Assembly (NCBI RefSeq): GCF_009730915.1
Contig: NC_052480.1
Span: 744,001-808,000 of the forward strand
DNA length: 64,000 nucleotides
Origin: Dioscorea cayenensis subsp. rotundata
Taxonomy: Eukaryota > Streptophyta > Magnoliopsida > Dioscoreales > Dioscoreaceae
Reading direction: 5' to 3'
Each line of letters begins with the position of its first letter. Position 1 is the first letter of the stretch. The position numbers and the translations under genes are program-made. Under the pieces are notes generated by a model that saw only the letters and a list, made by a program, of their open reading frames with translations, was not told the DNA's origin and ran no database searches. Shown here one piece after another: positions 19,193 through 39,792 of the stretch.

Positions 19193-19891
19193 TAATCTCT
19201 GATTTAGGTTTTGTTTGGATTTGATTTTTTTAAAAAAATATTTTTTTCAGTTTAGTAGAAGCTTTTCTTTTAGAATAAGTTAATCACTTTTTTTGTATTT
19301 TGTGTTTGAATTAGTGTTCTCAGAAAAATGTAGTTGTAAAAAAATAAACTAAAAATAATTTTTTTCGTAGTTCAGTACGACTAGCTACGGGATATATATT
19401 TTTCAGATTTTTTTATAACTTCTGTTTTTGAAAAAAACTCAATATAAATAATTTTTTTACCCAAAAGTACTTAACTTATATATAAAAAAAACACTTTTGA
19501 GTTTTCTAAAAGCTAATTCAAACAAGCCCTGAACCACTGATAATTAAAAATTATAATAATTTTATTACAAGTACAATATCATAGTTGAAAAAAAAGACGA
19601 CTTAAATACACAGTAAATGGACACAATTAGAACATGTCAAAAATCAATCAATTCTGAATTATTTTTACACAGATTTTGATTGAACAATATTTAGGTGGCC
19701 TCAGCATGGAAGTGGTTTTCCCTTTCCATCAATTTCACCATCTTGGAAAATCACTAATTAATTACAATTAAACCTCAAATAATCACAGTCAACAAAAGCC
19801 ATTAATTAAACTAATCCCAAAAGTTCAGGCTTTGTTGCTCTATATATAATACTCTTTGAAACCACCCTCAAAGAAATCCACACAGTGAACA
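18991..19891. other. Intergenic and proximal promoter of ATL gene
   Basis: AT-rich, with a long (TA)n tract at 19160-19190. A plausible TATA box CTATATATAATACTC lies near 19839, about 50 bases upstream of the ATL start. No ORF is supportable. Confidence 0.5.
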
Positions 19892-20530
19892 ATGGCTTCT
19901 CTAGACCTCTTGCAAACACTTGCAATCCATATGTATCCAAGAAGGCTATTACTACACCCTCTATACACACTACCAACTCCTCCGAACTCACTGGCTTTAG
20001 CTCCAACGGTTCAAAGAAACAGCGCCGGTGCTCAACCAGGTAGCAGCTTCGACGCAAATGTTGTAATGATCCTTGCCGTGCTCCTCTGCGCGCTGATATG
20101 CGCGCTGGGGCTGAACACCATAGTGCGCTGCGCTCTACGTTGCATGGACCGAGTTGGGCTTGGAGCGGACCAGGCTGAGCGAGTCACAAGGCTGGCTCAG
20201 TCCGGGTTGAGGAGAAAAGTCATAAGGGCTTTGCCAGTGTTTGTATTCTCAGAAGGGTTGAAGATTTCAGAGTGTTGTGCTATTTGTTTGTCAGACTTCA
20301 TGAATGGAGAGAGAGTAAGAGTGTTGCCAAAATGCATGCATGGGTTTCACGTTAAGTGTATTGATCGTTGGTTGATGGCGAGATCATCTTGTCCGACGTG
20401 CAGGCAGTGTTTGTTCCACACTCGGCAGAAGAGCTCCGGGTGTGGTGATGGACAGCAAGGACAGCAGCAGACTACTCATTCTGTTATTTTACCATTAGAG
20501 CCTGAAGGATTGATTGTTTCTTATAGATGA
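19892..20530 (+). CDS. ATL-type RING-H2 ubiquitin E3 ligase, intronless
   Basis: A 212-residue protein. Residues 54-78 form a transmembrane helix, followed by the GLD-type motif GLRRKVIRALP at 105-115 and a canonical RING-H2 domain at 129-170. Metal ligands are C129, C132, C148, H150, H153, C156, C167, C170 (C-x2-C-x15-C-x-H-x2-H-x2-C-x10-C-x2-C), and the conserved Trp160 that contacts the E2 is present. This is the Arabidopsis Toxicos en Levadura architecture: a membrane-anchored E3 passing ubiquitin from an E2 to substrates, often in defence and sugar or ABA signalling. The tail PLEPEGLIVSYR resembles the ATL8/ATL80 group, but I do not assign a symbol. ATL genes are usually intronless, as here. 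The start is the first ATG after the leader. The substrate is unknown. Confidence 0.93.
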   Translation: MASLDLLQTLAIHMYPRRLLLHPLYTLPTPPNSLALAPTVQRNSAGAQPGSSFDANVVMILAVLLCALICALGLNTIVRCALRCMDRVGLGADQAERVTRLAQSGLRRKVIRALPVFVFSEGLKISECCAICLSDFMNGERVRVLPKCMHGFHVKCIDRWLMARSSCPTCRQCLFHTRQKSSGCGDGQQGQQQTTHSVILPLEPEGLIVSYR

Positions 20531-26107: not shown

Positions 26108-28122
<2,015 letters not shown>

Positions 28123-30559: not shown

Positions 30560-31110
30560 GGCCGGCTGTGGCAGAAGGCGTAGAGTTTGCTTTTATGTCA
30601 TTTGTTCCAATCAATGACGGGGGCAGGTCCAACCCATCTGCAAAACGCTTTGGGCCATCGAGTTCTAATGCATCGCACTACAGATGTTGTAGTAGCAGGT
30701 ATGTCCAGATTACTATCTTTAAAAGTCGAAACACCTATTTTTGACAACTTAGGCACCTTACTGCCATCTGCCATTATGACCCCCCGTTGATATGAAACAG
30801 ATTGAAATCTTTATTGATTAAATGACCTTGATCCTCATCTTGGATTGAGTGGTCAACTGCAAATAATACTGTGAAGTGTGCCTCGCCTGCCACCAGATGG
30901 GCTTTTCCGGGTGTTTAAAAACTTTCTTGCAATTCTGAAGAAGATAAAATCTTCTATTGAAAGTCTCTCAAGTCTTCTGCTATCTTTTTGCAATTGACTG
31001 GAAAAATACTAACTGTTGCAATAGCAATCCTTTTGTCGCTCACACAAGAGAATAGAATCTCGACAATTGCACCAACAAAACATCTAAACAATGTAAAATT
31101 TGTCGTTACC
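30560..31110 (-). pseudogene. Truncated MINDY-3/4-like pseudogene
   Basis: Conceptual translation on minus matches the intact gene at 35446-39792 in three blocks. The first is the end of the exon-4 equivalent (near 31110-31020, CFVGAIVEILFSCVSDKRIA), ending at a GTTAGT donor. The second is the start of the exon-5 equivalent (near 30985), which carries a TAG where the intact copy has Arg. The third is the C-terminal part of exon 7 (GEAHFTVLFAVDHSIQDEDQ, then GGVIMADGSKVPKLSK and CIRTRWP), ending PVIDWNK-stop near 30590. Everything between exon-5 start and the catalytic-His block is deleted, and the joined frames do not agree. It is therefore a decayed tandem paralogue. Confidence 0.8.
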
Positions 31111-31707
31111 AAAAAATTAAGAGCAAACATTTAATTATAAATAAAATGATTTATTTTGTAATATAATTTTTTTAAATATATTGACAAACTGACTGACAGA
31201 CAGACTAACTGACAGACAAATAAGATTTGTTGAGCTTGTTAAAAAAGAATAGTTTTCTCTATTCTATGGCAAGATTCTACATGACAATAGAATTAAAATA
31301 ATATTTTGAATGTATTAGCTGCAACGAAACTGTGCAGAATAACTGAACTAGTAGAAATGAGATACAAGGTTTTGATAGCTCAAATTGAAATTTTAATGTG
31401 CTTTTGACTTAAATGCAATGGTGATATCAAAAACCATATCCCATTCCCATTTTACAGATCATTTTCTTTGGAAAAACTTAAACGTTGTGTTCCTCGTTGC
31501 TTGACATTATGTAATATATATATTCATGTCGGCTCTTGTGCAACCACAAGAGTGAGAGGAATTAATAATGACAAGATTCATAGTTTTACTAAATCCTATT
31601 TTGACCGTGGAATAAATCTGTTAAGCATGAAAATTTCTTGAAGTAGGTACCTCAACAGTTTGATATAGTTATATGTAGAAAGATTATTAATTTCTTCAAT
31701 CTTTCAG
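31111..31707. other. Intergenic between pseudogene and coiled-coil fragments
   Basis: No ORF. Contains a short near-tandem repeat CTGACAGACAGACTAACTGA near 31191. Nothing else recognised. Confidence 0.4.
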
Positions 31708-31916
31708 GTAAAACAAGTTGAAAGTTTGACGCAAGAGCTATCTAAGCAACTCCAAGAGGCTTCAGTATGTAATCACATTTATGATCTTCAGATGCATTAT
31801 GTCACAATATGGTTTAAATATATATGAACTTAATGTTGATTGTCAATTATTAGGAAGCCAATGAGGAGTCTAAGACTAAGACTGTCACTCAAGCTTTGAC
31901 AATGAATGATTTATAG
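31708..31916 (+). pseudogene. Two exon-like coiled-coil fragments, source uncertain
   Basis: 31708-31764 is an open 57-base block between CAG and GTATGT and encodes VKQVESLTQELSKQLQEAS. 31854-31916 follows TTATTAG and encodes EANEESKTKTVTQALTMNDL, then a stop. Both are Glu/Gln/Lys-rich heptad-like segments. The wording QVESLT and KQL-EA recalls the coiled coil of plant PRAF (PH-RCC1-FYVE) proteins, but the match is short. No other exons were found, so this is probably a gene fragment. Confidence 0.3.
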
Positions 31917-32079
31917 TATATGACTTCTTTTTATCACTAACAAGATGAAGTATTATAGCTTGATATCTATCTACTAAAAGTGTCTATTATGATGTATTCA
32001 CAGAAATCAAGCAAAGAATGGAGAAAGATCTGGATGACAGATGCAAAGTTGCCCTTAATTCCTCATCATCATGGATGAC

Positions 32080-34320
32080 TAACTAGATTTTTTACGCTTT
32101 AGCATAATAAAAATATATCAAATTATTATATGTTATTGGGATAGATGCAAATGGCTGCATCTATCCTAGGTGAACTATGTATATCCTGCTTTAGTAAGTT
32201 CATTATATGCTTCTTCAAAAATTAAATTTAATAAAATTTGGGAATCATCATCTAGGCTACATATTTGAATTTCACTATGATGTTCATACAATCTATTTTT
32301 AAATTCTAATATACCATGCTTATATAATTGATCTCCTGAAATTAATTGTATATTTTTTTCTCTAACCCATATCTATTTGTTTTTGTGGAGGTAATAAATT
32401 TTTCTAGAGTTCTAATTGGTTTATTATTTTTAGATAAATTCCAGATTGAAAATCTTTCTAATATTAATTATTTGTATTGGTAGTGGTATAGGTGGTGCGG
32501 ATTCATTTAATTTTTTATCCATTATCCTTTAGATCCATTTTAACAGTATTTTGCTTGTGTTTTATCCCACTTTGTTTCTAAATCTTTTTTTCCATGTTTT
32601 GAGATTATTTTTTGCCAGTTTAATTTCTTTTGCATTTTCTAAATCTCTAAATAAACTTTGTTTTAAAATAAGATATCTAAATCTCTAAATAAACTTTGTT
32701 TTAAAATAAGATATTCATGAACTTCTTCTAACCAAGCTAATTGTTGTTCTTTTGTTTGATTTTGTAATTTGTATGGATTTATTTTATCATATCTTCTTGT
32801 ATAATCTAAGTTTATTATCATTTTTTGTATTGTCCTTGAATCTATGCAATTAAGTAAATATTTCATTTTTCTTTTAGAAATTCTTTAGGAAATTTTATTC
32901 TATATTCAGGTGGAGCAAAGTGGAGATATTGGTTATTTTTTATTTTATTTTCTTTTCCTAATGTTAATTTTTTTCATAAAAGTACATAATTCATTTATTC
33001 ATTATTATCTTTATTTTTATCTATACTATTTTTATATGGTCTAGGTTTATCATTATAGTTTCTATTTTTTCTAAATGATTTTCTATTTCCAATAATTTTT
33101 TTAAAAATAAAATCTACTTTATCTATTAAACTATTTATTTTTTCAACTAGTTTTTCTTGGTTCATCAAGACTTCAGATATTTTTCATGTACTTGTTCTCT
33201 GAGGAAAAGTGTTGTGTCTTTCCTTTCCAGATTAGAGAAGGGTCTTCCCTTTCCAGCTTAGAGAAGTAACTGGACCAGGCCAGGCCTCCATTTTCTTAGT
33301 ATAAAGACTGGTTCTCTGTAATGAACTATATACATGAATATTTTCTGAGAATCCTTTGAACCTTTTTTATACCATTCGATACTAATTTTAAGATGATATT
33401 TTTTTGATAATTATTTTTTACTATAATATTTTGATAATTTGTAAGTGCTACTTCGTAATAAGTGATACTATTTTTATATTAATTCATCAAAAGAGTAAAA
33501 TATTATTTTCATCAATTCATAACAAAGAGATATGCTATTAAAGAGACTTTGTCTACGTACTAAATCTTCTTCTTTAGTATATGCATGATATAAATTTAAG
33601 TACCTACTTGAAATAATATCATATAATTCTATGATAGATATCATGCAAGGAAAATAAATATTTTTGATACTTTTTTTTTACAGAAAGTAAATTTGCTAAA
33701 TTAGAAAGACTGAATTAAAATTCTGAAAGAACTTCAAGAGAGACTACGGGACTCTCCCCTAGACAAGAACATAAGAGAAATTGTTATTAGTTCTTTGGTT
33801 TAGTAATCTAGAGTCAAGAACAAGTCCAACTGGAAATGGTTCTGAATACCAGCTATCATGTTTGCATCCCACTATTCCCCTTTTTCCCACTTAGGTACTT
33901 AGGCAGGTACTTCTCGGAGATCAAACAAGAACTTATTAATTCAGCTAGCTAATAGCCAGTACTTAACTCATAAAACTAAATAAAGAGTTTCATAACCTAT
34001 GAAAACATTGTTCTTGAACTAGAGAAGGGATCTATTCCCTGAAAGCCATAAGACTTCACAAGAGTAGAGGTTTTATTTTGATCGGAACAGTGGCTCTGAT
34101 ATCAGTAAGCGGGAGTTGGCTCTTCAAGGTCGATGACCTAAGAGTTAGCTCAAAGTTGAAACAACAGATGAAAGAAAGAAATGGAAAGAGGTGGTTACAG
34201 AAAGATGGAGTTTATTGCAAGCTCAAGAGGTTTCTTACAAGTGATGGATCGATTATCCTGGATACATAAGAGGGAGCTTCTTATATAGAGAGAAGCTCAA
34301 ACCTTGCATGGGTAAAAGAT
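32080..34320 (-). mobile_element. Degraded endogenous pararetrovirus-like (or LTR retroelement) remnant
   Basis: Read on minus, a promoter-like CTCTATATAAGAAGC lies near 34290. It is followed by CAATAAACT near 34215, a primer-binding-like TATCAGAGCC (initiator-Met tRNA type) near 34095, then coding-like debris. One stretch (33170-33000) encodes a Lys/Asn/Arg-rich basic region; an open 67-codon segment lies at 32866-32663; and 32500-32080 shows a stop-broken stretch whose end loosely resembles the core of Caulimoviridae movement proteins. Upstream of the promoter another frame ends, as expected if it was linearised from a circular genome. No reverse transcriptase is seen. Frames are interrupted by stops and shifts, so it is non-functional. 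A gypsy or copia LTR element is the main alternative. Confidence 0.45.
32640..32716. repeat. Tandem duplication of about 41 bases
   Basis: TAAATCTCTAAATAAACTTT followed by GTTTTAAAATAAGATAT occurs twice in a row inside the retroelement remnant, extending its open frame. It looks like a recent replication-slippage duplication. Confidence 0.75.
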
Positions 34321-35445: not shown

Positions 35446-38400
35446 CTAACTAATGCAAAACCAACTAAGCATTATAGTCCACGTCATATGCTGACTTAAC
35501 TTATCAACCTCCCTGTATACACACTCCACAAAATAATTCTTCCAGTCTATAATGGGAGGAAGGCCAATCCAACTACAAATAGCTCCAGGCCAACGTGTTC
35601 TAATGCAATTGATCAATGGTGTTGTGGTAACAGGCCAATTCATTTCATTAGAAGAACCAATGTTTAGAAGGGCTGAAATACTGATCTTGCACAGCTTGGG
35701 GACCCTGACGCCTTTTGCGATTTTTACACCCCCATTTATGTGATAGACATCAAAATACTTCATGGTTGGAGGCCCTTGTGCATCCTCATCTTGCAGTGAC
35801 TCATCTAGAGCGAAAAGCACAGTGTAATGGGAATGACCTCCTACCACCCAAATTGGGAATCTTGGTCTTTTGAGGTTTTGGCCAACTCCATTCCTAGAAA
35901 GGAATCCATGGGTAGCTCTCTCGGTTATGCCTTTGCATGGTGCCACACCACGATAAAGTGTTCCATCAAACGTTTTAGTGAGCAACAGATTCACTGCATC
36001 CTGAGAAATGAATTAACCATGGTAAGGATTTTATGTGTATGCTACCACAACAATGGATTAATATTACTGAGGCATGAGCATGGCTTATTTAGAGATCCTC
36101 ACATTAGCAGGTGGTCATGTGAAAAAAGGGTTGTGATCATTAGTAGCTGTAATTTGACATTGTTTACCTGTGAGAGATGCCCATCCGGAAATGAAACCAA
36201 TGGAAGGCTTGAATATCTGTCATTCCGAATGGAATCCTGTTCCCGAACAGAGAAAACTATTACTTCTTAACAAGTTCTCAGAAACATATATATTGAATCT
36301 TTCTACTTAATCTGTCCTCTAGAGTATAAGGCAGAAATTCCTAAGATCTACTGGAAAATGCACAAACAACCAAATTGCAATGGAAGAAAGCATTGTGAGA
36401 ACAAGGGGAACAAGGCATATACCAATCCTCGTGAAAGTAGAGCAGAAACAAGGAATAAGAATGCCCCCACTGGACTTTCAAGAACTTCAATCTCTTTTGT
36501 AAACCGAAAGTAAACAGAGGCCAAATCAGTGCACTCCTTAGCTCTTAAAACTTTCTGTAATTCAGAGGGAGATAAAATCTTCCTCTCAAAGTCTTTCAAG
36601 TCTTCTCTTCTTATCTATTTAGAAAACATATTTGTAGCACAAGTAAGACAAACATAGTGTGAATAAGGAGGAAAAAATATGAGAAAATTGGTCGAAAGAG
36701 TGTCACTTTGGTCTTCAGATATATCGGCATCCACCCTTATTAAGGAGGGTTGAAAAACAACTTACTGTTGCAATAACAACTCTTTGACTTCCGCATATGA
36801 ACAAAATTTCACACATTGCAGCAGCCAAACAGCTAAAAGTGCAAAATTTATAATCAGCAACAGACTTGAGAGCTGAAATTTAATTATAGATAAATGAATT
36901 ACTTTGACTTGTCAACATCGCTTATAGCATTAAAAGGTTTTTTCCAATATTCTGAACTTCGCCTGGATCTCACTGCAGTTATTATATATTCTGTTTTCTT
37001 GTTCATGAACAGAAGATATATAATCGAGGAAAACTGCCTGCAGAACCAAGAGAATGTACAAAAAATTACCTTGAATGCTTCAAACCTTTACTTTTACCAC
37101 TACAAACATCAAGAAATATTTTATGAGCAATATCATCTTTAAATGGAATACTCATCAAGACAACCAAGTATAAAAATTTCATGTTCATATGGAGAATGAA
37201 GTTTGTAAAATTATACTAGTGAAAACGTTAGTCCTTTAACATGCATTTCCCGCATCATATGTCCATATGTGCTACCACTGAAATTATATAACAGTAATTA
37301 CAAAGAAAATTGGCTCATCATGGGGATCCTTCCACCATTGAAATGATTAATACAGTTGAGTGTCACATCATCAACAGAAGCATCAGCTTGAAGAAAAAGT
37401 AGGGCACATGAAATCTTACCTACTAAGGTCATCTTTTTTTTCCCAGATAAATACATTGATCATTGATGAAAATTTTTGAGTTAGGTGGTTCTAATCTATG
37501 ATTATATCTATTACAGATCAGGATTCTGCAATAAATAACAAGTTCCATCTAAACAATAAAAAATTAAATTAAATGCATGATACATGTGCACTTCTATGCT
37601 CAGTTTCTTCTTTTTAAAATTTCTTTCATATTTAAAGTAATTATTTAAATAACATAATAGGCAAGCAAGGCCACAATAAGAAAATAATACCTGTATGGCT
37701 GCTACAATGCCAGAAGGACCTATTTCTTGTTGCACCAAGCATATGTTATCCTCTTGAATCTCAGTAAACCTAGATGTAAATAATGGAAATGATGTCAAGA
37801 TATTAAGCACTAAGTACTGCCAGCTTGTGAAGTGGGTGAAAGAGAATGTTGTAACAGTTATTATACAAAAGAAACATATTACTGTGCTCTTGATAAGCCA
37901 AGAAAATCTACTCCTTGAGATTACGACAACTAACCCCAATAAATAAATAAATAAACTTTCAATAACTGAGCCACCCACAAACACACAGAAAAGAGAAATT
38001 TTGAATCAGAAGTAAAATTAAGAACCTTGTGATTGAATTTGACAAGGATGAAACTTGGCCAAGCAAAATTCCAAAGTCACAAATCATGCAGAATTTGATA
38101 ATTCAAAACACAAAAATATTAAATAGGTCACATATATAAATTCTTATATAAAAAGGTAGGATATAAAACCACTAACTTTTGGAATAAACATTAAGAACTG
38201 CCAGAATATCGAGAAAAAGAATGTTGTTACAGTTATTAAATGTTCCTCTTGCAAGAATAAGCATAAGTTCCAAATAGAATTTGCGGGGTCATGATAAGCA
38301 ATGCATATGCACTCCTAGAAGAAAGAGATGACACCTAAACAACAGAAAATATTCCAACAACTTAGCTAGCAACATACACCCACATACGCGCGCACACGTA

Positions 38401-39792
38401 CCCGATTGAAAAAAAGTGCTAGATAAGATGAGAAATGTCGATTGCCTATAGATTATATAGAATAAAAAAAATTTGTGATTGAATATGACAAAGCTGAAAC
38501 TTGGCCGAACAATATCACAAGTCACGGAGATGGTTCACTTATAACAAGTTCATGAAAACTTCTTTTATTAAAATTTAAATTCATCTAGGAAAACCATGTA
38601 AACCTTCTGCAAATTACACCTCCTGATAATACAAAACCCAAACATGCTAAATAAGTCACATGTAGAACAAACACTAACAGCAATCAAGAAATTCGCAACC
38701 CTACTCACTAATAGACCATTGAACATCCATAATGCCTGAGACACTCTAGCCTCCAAAAACCTGTATGTGACCCACAATTATACTCCTGTGAAAAATCCCT
38801 GAACCAAAACAACATTTACAGTAAGGTCCCAGACAACAACTCTTTCGAAAATTTGAGCATCCTTGCTACCACTTGATGCAGCATATGAATTAGTCCCTCC
38901 AGTAAATGCTATAATTAAGAATCAGAAAGTCTTCTTAATATCTTACTCTTAGTAATCACAACTACAACAGTCAATGAATTTCCAATCTTTAAGACTAAAA
39001 AGAGATCCAACCTTTATAATGCACAAGAACATTCTAACCTCCAAAAACTCATAGGAAACCTAAAATTATAATCCTTTCTGGAACCCCTGATTCACCAACA
39101 ACAGGTCTCATGCTGCAACTCTTTCAAAAATTTAACCAGCTTTCTTACCTATCAATGTATCATCTGAATTAGTTTTTTTTTTGGGAAAGAGAAGCGGGGC
39201 GAACCCACTAGAGACCCAGGGACGTGCACAAGTCTCGGTGGAACAGTGGGAGCAGGGCCACGTCATGGCATTTGGAACCACCCGTACACAACCACTATTC
39301 ACAACTCCCAAAAATGTGCCCTCAGCCGAGAATCGAACTCTCACCGCTCGGTGAGAGCTCTATTGACGACCCGTGTACCAATAGACCCGAAGGTCGTTGG
39401 CATATCATCTGAATTAGTTGCTCCGAGACATGAGACATTAGCATTCTTAAATAAGGACTTCAAAGGTTTCTTGCTCTCTTATAACAACAAAATCATGCAA
39501 GAATTGGTGATAAAAACTAGTTTCTGTGGCCATCCAATTGAAACTTAACATTCTCATTCATTCCCAGACTAAAGCTGAAATTTCAATAGCAGAACATCCA
39601 ACAATCAAGATAAAGATAGATCAACCAATCTAACCTGATACCATGGTTGTTCCACCTCCTCAAGATTTCCTGTGATGGGTTTCTGCCAAAGATCATCGTG
39701 AAAAGCTCGTTCACCATCTCCGGCGATAGCTTCTCCCCTACTTCACCCCCAACCTTTTCTATCTCCCTCAAGTTCAGCATCCTTCGTGTCAT
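35446..39792 (-). CDS. MINDY-3/4-like (DUF4205) deubiquitinase homologue, 7 exons, catalytic Cys replaced by Ser
   Basis: Exons (minus): 39792-39635, 37769-37691, 37037-36974, 36872-36766, 36614-36423, 36236-36168, 36000-35446. They join in frame to 407 residues with GT-AG introns. Recognition comes from DAVNLLLTKTFDG, RFPIWVVGGHSHYTVLF (catalytic-type His281), the FDVYHINGG block and CIRTRWPGA, which follow the order of human MINDY-3 and MINDY-4. MINDY enzymes cleave Lys48-linked ubiquitin chains using Cys and His. The active-site loop, normally GGPCGVLAA-Q, reads EIGPSGIVAAIQ, so Ser72 (TCT) replaces Cys and the protein may be inactive or a ubiquitin-chain reader. The C-terminal 30 residues after IIDW exceed relatives; another splice or stop is possible. 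Intron 1 holds a SINE. A broken paralogue lies downstream. Confidence 0.85.
39175..39402 (-). mobile_element. tRNA-derived SINE with 17-bp target duplication, in MINDY intron 1
   Basis: On minus the head reads GGTCTATTGGTACACGGG (A-box-like) and about 40 bases later AGTTCGATTCTCGG (B-box-like), then a GC-rich body ending in poly-A (poly-T at 39173-39181 on plus). Perfect 17-bp direct repeats TATCATCTGAATTAGTT lie at 39158-39174 and 39403-39419. It is same-sense to the host gene within its first intron. Sequence differs from the other SINEs in the window. The ORFs here are shadows. Confidence 0.88.

Follow-up and report, generated by a model that had tools for sequence, protein, structure and literature searches.

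A MINDY-3-like plant gene with serine in place of the catalytic cysteine

Human MINDY-4B is annotated as inactive. In the excerpts cited from two reviews, MINDY4B is tabulated as a K48 cysteine protease (PMC8424594), and pseudo-deubiquitinases are described as common, making up about 13% of deubiquitinases (DUBs; PMC10919355). Among the closest known counterparts of the gene reported here is human MINDY-3, also known as FAM188A (PDB 9rmd; PMC13354579, PMC4942677). In the cited portion of PMC13354579, the C51A and H287A substitutions abolish the activity of human MINDY3, in line with the need of MINDY DUBs for this Cys that the initial annotation of the locus had stated; Gln45 is essential, L245A is inactive and N386A is active. 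The same portion describes the EF-hand as a ubiquitin-binding domain that also binds RAD23. For plants, the cited part of a potato DUB survey identified MINDY proteins by PF04424 (PMC10539648), so that the PF13898 family was probably missed there, and the cited part of a Populus survey refers to MINDY in two places, the background and the abbreviations (PMC8281628). A full-text literature search yielded no description of a plant MINDY-3/4 pseudoenzyme among the matches listed.

The gene described here, referred to in the following as W, lies in a 64,000-nucleotide stretch of a 584-Mb plant genome (C10:744001-808000), which we call the window. Its features are collected in Table 1. When the predicted protein was compared with the Pfam profile PF13898 (MINDY-3_4_CD, cut-off 27), it scored 147.3 bits in splice model M2 and 144.3 bits in model M1, so that M2 barely outscored M1; both lie far above the cut-off, and the likeness to MINDY is not due to chance. 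The M2 match covered profile positions 3–343 of 344, showing that W belongs to the MINDY-3/4 family by descent. Against human MINDY-3 (9rmd), W gave an E value of 4.7e-23, and the M2 protein 4.4e-23. No homologues were found in viral contigs (50 pattern matches) or prokaryote contigs (58 pattern matches). Intron 1 contains an insert at 39158–39419, bounded by an exact 17-bp repeat, TATCATCTGAATTAGTT, at 39158–39174 and 39403–39419; in appearance, the insert resembles a tRNA-derived SINE. Pieces similar to it occur in three places in the C5 stretch described below.

Table 1. Features of W and of the neighbouring fragment W2 (window coordinates).
Feature	Coordinates	Strand	Remarks
W, MINDY-3-like gene without catalytic Cys	35446..39792	(-)	M2 model, 7 exons, 416 aa, frame open throughout
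W exon 1	39635..39792	(-)	begins MTRRML; UIM-like stretch absent
W exon 2	37691..37769	(-)	carries LVQQEIGPSGIVAAIQ
Ser72 codon TCT, catalytic Cys position	37712..37714	(-)	aligned to 9rmd Cys51 and C5 GGPC
W exon 3, model M2	36903..37033	(-)	acceptor 4 nt downstream of ancestral; GCAGGCAG; frame agrees with W3 and C5 exon 3
W exon 4, model M2	36766..36832	(-)	donor ACA/GTAAGT (slash marks the exon border); W3 has ACA/GTAATT
W exon 5	36423..36614	(-)	
W exon 6	36168..36236	(-)	
W exon 7	35446..36000	(-)	His block SHYTVLF (His290) and Asn321; without EF-hand segment
W2, broken tandem fragment	30607..31178	(-)	exon 4, exon 5 start, second half of exon 7; in-frame stops; no EF-hand segment

A PF13898 family search of the genome identified two places, W and a gene of canonical MINDY-3 type, referred to as C5 (C5:1377523-1382242, 605 aa), which carries the sequence VQHEGGPC. 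The coding sequence of both genes is divided into seven exons whose borders mostly agree, apart from an exon 4 donor that is shifted in W, and the proteins share about 50% amino-acid identity (315 codons, exons 3–4 excluded). Unlike W, C5 has the GGPC motif, an N-terminus resembling a UIM (18.4 bits against the Pfam UIM profile, below its cut-off, 21) and a segment that can be aligned to the human MINDY-3 EF-hand region. Collinearity was assessed by tblastn of the 1,068 stop-to-stop frames of the window (at least 30 aa) against 209.9 kb around C5, which gave 68 rows of matches; frames with more than four matches were left out of those inspected. Among the matches listed, a RING-type gene (19889–20527), an actin gene (26.1–27.4 kb) and W recur on C5 in matching but inverted order, whereas a few other matches did not fit it: those between window positions 15.5–16.0 kb and C5 1311–1314 kb, and those linking C5 1457 kb to window positions 42.8 and 55.6 kb. 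The synonymous distance (NG86 dS) between W and C5 was 1.05 (315 codons outside exons 3–4); for the two neighbours it was 0.68 (actin) and 1.38 (RING). The shared inverted neighbours and these dS values fit a block duplication, from which W apparently arose as a divergent copy of C5. Two pieces of the actin gene (26237–27437) showed 97.1% and 98.5% protein identity to the C5 duplicate.

Exon 2 of W is 79 nt long, has AG/GT borders, is in frame with its neighbours and reads FTEIQEDNICLVQQEIGPSGIVAAIQ. The initial annotation had placed a TCT codon for Ser where MINDY-3/4 enzymes have the Cys of GGPC, and this was borne out by two alignments, in which the codon corresponds to Cys51 of the GGPC motif of human MINDY-3 (9rmd) and to the Cys of VQHEGGPCGV in C5. 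W thus lacks the catalytic Cys (human Cys51) that an active MINDY-3/4 DUB requires. The oxyanion residue Gln45 and the catalytic His287 are retained as Gln66 and His290, the latter in the SHYTVLF block that had also been pointed out before, and Asn386 corresponds to Asn321. No Leu is found at the position of the S1 ubiquitin contact Leu245 by either alignment: the position is a gap in the phmmer alignment and is occupied by Cys254 if the alignment with C5 is anchored on KGI. An alternative exon supplying GPC had been named as a finding that would overturn this picture. When the window was searched by tblastn with W and C5, no such exon was seen; the exon 2 region matched at 37.7 kb, and the sole extra was a chance match of W at 20368–20502, on the opposite strand, with an E value of 0.29 and without GPC. 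Since C51A inactivates human MINDY3, Gln45 is essential there and the Cys is absent from W, the conclusion that W has lost catalysis is well supported.

A search of the genome with the W protein returned at least 23 matching stretches (E up to 1), comprising exons of W and C5 and pieces of three further loci, W2, W3 and W4. The C5 protein matched at least 16 stretches, and, among the matches listed, the Cys-bearing exon 2 was matched at C5 only. None of the three further loci is intact: stops, missing exons or the loss of a splice site have broken them. W2 is the fragment next to W, W3 is located at C10:482.4-487.4 kb, and W4 at C6:20.128 Mb, where an insert of about 555 bases divides exon 7 (C6:20128190-20128746). 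The ends of this insert look like inverted repeats (TAGGGGTGGCA ... ACCACCCCTA). In W3, five similar pieces of exon 5 follow one another (C10:484881, 485246, 486204, 486600 and 487006). Between W2 and W, the window contains an apparent degenerate retroelement (around 31200–34200), with a TGATATCAGAGCCA stretch near 34100.

The loss of the Cys is probably old. W3 reads DERSPSGVIAAV at the site, with Ser encoded by TCG, and it is the only one of the sister loci found that keeps the site (1/1 with Ser); no exon 2 was found in the stretches of W2 and W4 that were read. W3 is also linked to W by its introns and by a shifted exon 4 donor common to the two: the alignment score of intron 4 was z = 9.2 for W and W3 vs. 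1.0 for W and C5, and that of intron 3 was 8.4 vs. 6.1. In amino-acid quartets that include human MINDY-3, the pairing of W with W3 is only just favoured (8:6:3). From these comparisons, W and W3 look like sisters, and since W3 has Ser as well, the Cys was probably lost before the two split, which would give the Ser of both a common origin.

The initial annotation considered the rest of the fold intact, which is too strong, because W has lost more than the Cys. In comparison with C5, the UIM-like N-terminus is missing, as are about 80 residues that make up an EF-hand-like segment, the final part of exon 4 and, within exon 7, two stretches of 5 and 6 residues. The EF-hand insert, which binds ubiquitin and RAD23, characterizes the MINDY-3 subtype, and the EF-hand region of 9rmd was also left unmatched in the alignment with W. 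The EF-hand segment is absent from W2 and W4 too, and W4 shares the 6-residue gap in exon 7. Without the Cys, an equivalent of Leu245 and the EF-hand, W would be expected neither to cleave ubiquitin chains nor to bind them more than weakly, if at all. Of the earlier proposal that W is a pseudo-DUB that binds chains without cutting them, the loss of cutting thus stands, whereas the absence of the UIM-like stretch, the EF-hand and Leu245 speaks against the binding. As the known ubiquitin-binding parts are gone from W, binding of a MINDY-3 partner or a scaffold role appears more likely than binding of ubiquitin chains.

The description of W as seven well-spliced exons held in part: seven exons can be drawn, but exon 3 contains a 4-nt insertion relative to C5 and W3 (DNA alignment), located in a short TA run (TATATAT), so that an open model demands either an acceptor 4 nt downstream or two cryptic sites. 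The exon 3 acceptor, GCAGGCAG, has two AGs 4 nt apart. The upstream one appears to fit the plant acceptor pattern more closely; splicing at the second brings the exon back into frame. Model M2 (416 aa) uses this downstream acceptor while retaining the ancestral donor and the next acceptor, and has no stop in any exon. Model M1 (exon 3, 37037–36974; exon 4, 36872–36766) is also open, but needs the two cryptic sites, truncates exon 3 and makes the end of intron 3 coding. Since the alignment with C5 and W3 shows the tail of exon 3 to be conserved in another frame, M2 is the preferred gene model, with M1 as a possible alternative. The simple notion that W is dead, because ancestral splicing runs into a stop in exon 3, was abandoned when the downstream acceptor came to light.

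A serious rival explanation, to which we assign a substantial though lesser probability, is that W died recently or is dying: the Ser would be old, the frame-shifting insertion in exon 3 would mark the point at which function was lost, and the second acceptor would restore the frame fortuitously or to a minor extent. Splicing at the upstream AG, with all else as in M2, leads to a stop after 114 aa, and the three other W-like loci found are all broken. In M2, however, every exon is free of stops, and the 4-nt insertion is exactly compensated by the new AG 4 nt downstream.

The rates of codon change bear on the same question. The pairwise dN/dS of W and C5 was 0.41, a value that averages both branches. 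A codon fit on three branches that included W3 (208 codons, exons 1–6) gave omega values of 0.78 on the W branch, 0.445 on that of W3 and 0.54 on that of C5 together with the stem; omega = 1 could be rejected for W3 (2 delta lnL 7.2) but not for W (0.16). The corresponding fit with W2 (146 codons, exons 4, 5 and 7) gave an omega of 0.25 for W, for which omega = 1 was not rejected (1.42), and 0.196 for W2, for which it was rejected (8.0). The omega values below 1 of W3 and W2 indicate that these copies, now broken, were constrained for a time after splitting from W. On the W branch itself, omega is indistinguishable from 1, as a dying gene would have it. Two further observations count against the explanation that we favour below: the branch lengths of W (0.19) and W3 (0.64) differ threefold and are not clock-like, and, with human MINDY-3 as outgroup, W had 37 unique changes vs. 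20 in C5 (chi2 5.07), so that W evolved more quickly than C5, a pattern of relaxed genes.

The open frame is a stronger sign of selection on W than dN/dS is. Neutral evolution of the 416 codons was simulated (2000 runs each, no indels modelled) at 0.13 and 0.15 neutral substitutions per site, close to the two values (0.129 and 0.15) obtained for the W branch with omega fixed at 1. The probability of finding no stop was 0.0015 at 0.13 and 0.0005 at 0.15 substitutions per site, and 0.002 and 0.001, respectively, without exon 3 (372 codons); the test is somewhat biased, as M2 was picked partly for being open. Drift along the entire branch is therefore unlikely, and selection probably acted on W during most of the time since it split from W3, which would place this selection after the loss of the Cys. 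When drift was confined to the last 0.05 substitutions per site, 5–7% of runs had no stop (4.9% with the 416 codons), and a death no longer than about 0.05 substitutions per site ago agrees with the stop-free frame. The two possibilities raised originally, a pseudoenzyme or a gene in early decay, thus both stand, the Ser in W3 and the open frame on one side, the broken sisters and the frame-shifting insertion on the other.

It is improbable that W is an ordinary gene, intact except for the Ser, whose exon 3 reflects an assembly error in the TATATAT run or some other splicing. The insertion does lie within that short TA run, but the Ser, the loss of the EF-hand and the other gaps are outside it and are partly common to W2, W3 and W4, and the tblastn search of the window showed no other exon supplying GPC. 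That W is still an enzyme, with Ser72 or another residue as nucleophile, is scarcely credible: Gln66, His290 and Asn321 are retained, and USP53 and USP54, annotated as pseudo-DUBs, proved active according to the excerpt cited (PMC12037411), but human MINDY3 with C51A is inactive and needs Gln45 and Leu245 too (cited portion of PMC13354579), and W is also without the EF-hand segment and an equivalent of Leu245.

The explanation that we favour, with moderate confidence, is that W is a catalytically dead MINDY-3-type paralogue, born in a block duplication and long kept by selection as a non-catalytic protein. In such a course of events, a chromosome block would have been duplicated, the copy on C5 remaining canonical, while in the W line the UIM-like N-terminus and the EF-hand segment would have disappeared and Ser would have taken the place of the catalytic Cys. 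The gene would then have been copied several times within this line, the other copies found now being broken, while the frame of W was kept open beyond the expectation of neutral drift and the protein served in a non-catalytic role, at least until recently. A more specific version we put forward tentatively and consider rather doubtful as a whole: after the block duplication, a MINDY-3 DUB would have shed its Cys, its ubiquitin modules and its S1 contact to become a non-enzyme kept by selection that may not bind ubiquitin, the 4-nt insertion having been rescued by the new acceptor.

If W is decaying, it represents an ordinary fate after duplication. Should it prove to be expressed and conserved, this plant genome would have both a MINDY pseudoenzyme and its canonical paralogue, and W and C5 would form a clean pair for studying the role of a DUB fold without catalysis or ubiquitin binding. 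Compared with human MINDY-3, W has the same catalytic domain with equivalents of Gln45, His287 and Asn386, but differs in having Ser at Cys51, no EF-hand, no Leu245 and a different exon 3–4 region. With pseudo-DUBs in general, as described in the cited excerpt of PMC10919355, W shares a DUB fold minus a needed catalytic residue, whereas it differs in being a lineage copy with broken sisters and a putative non-catalytic role.
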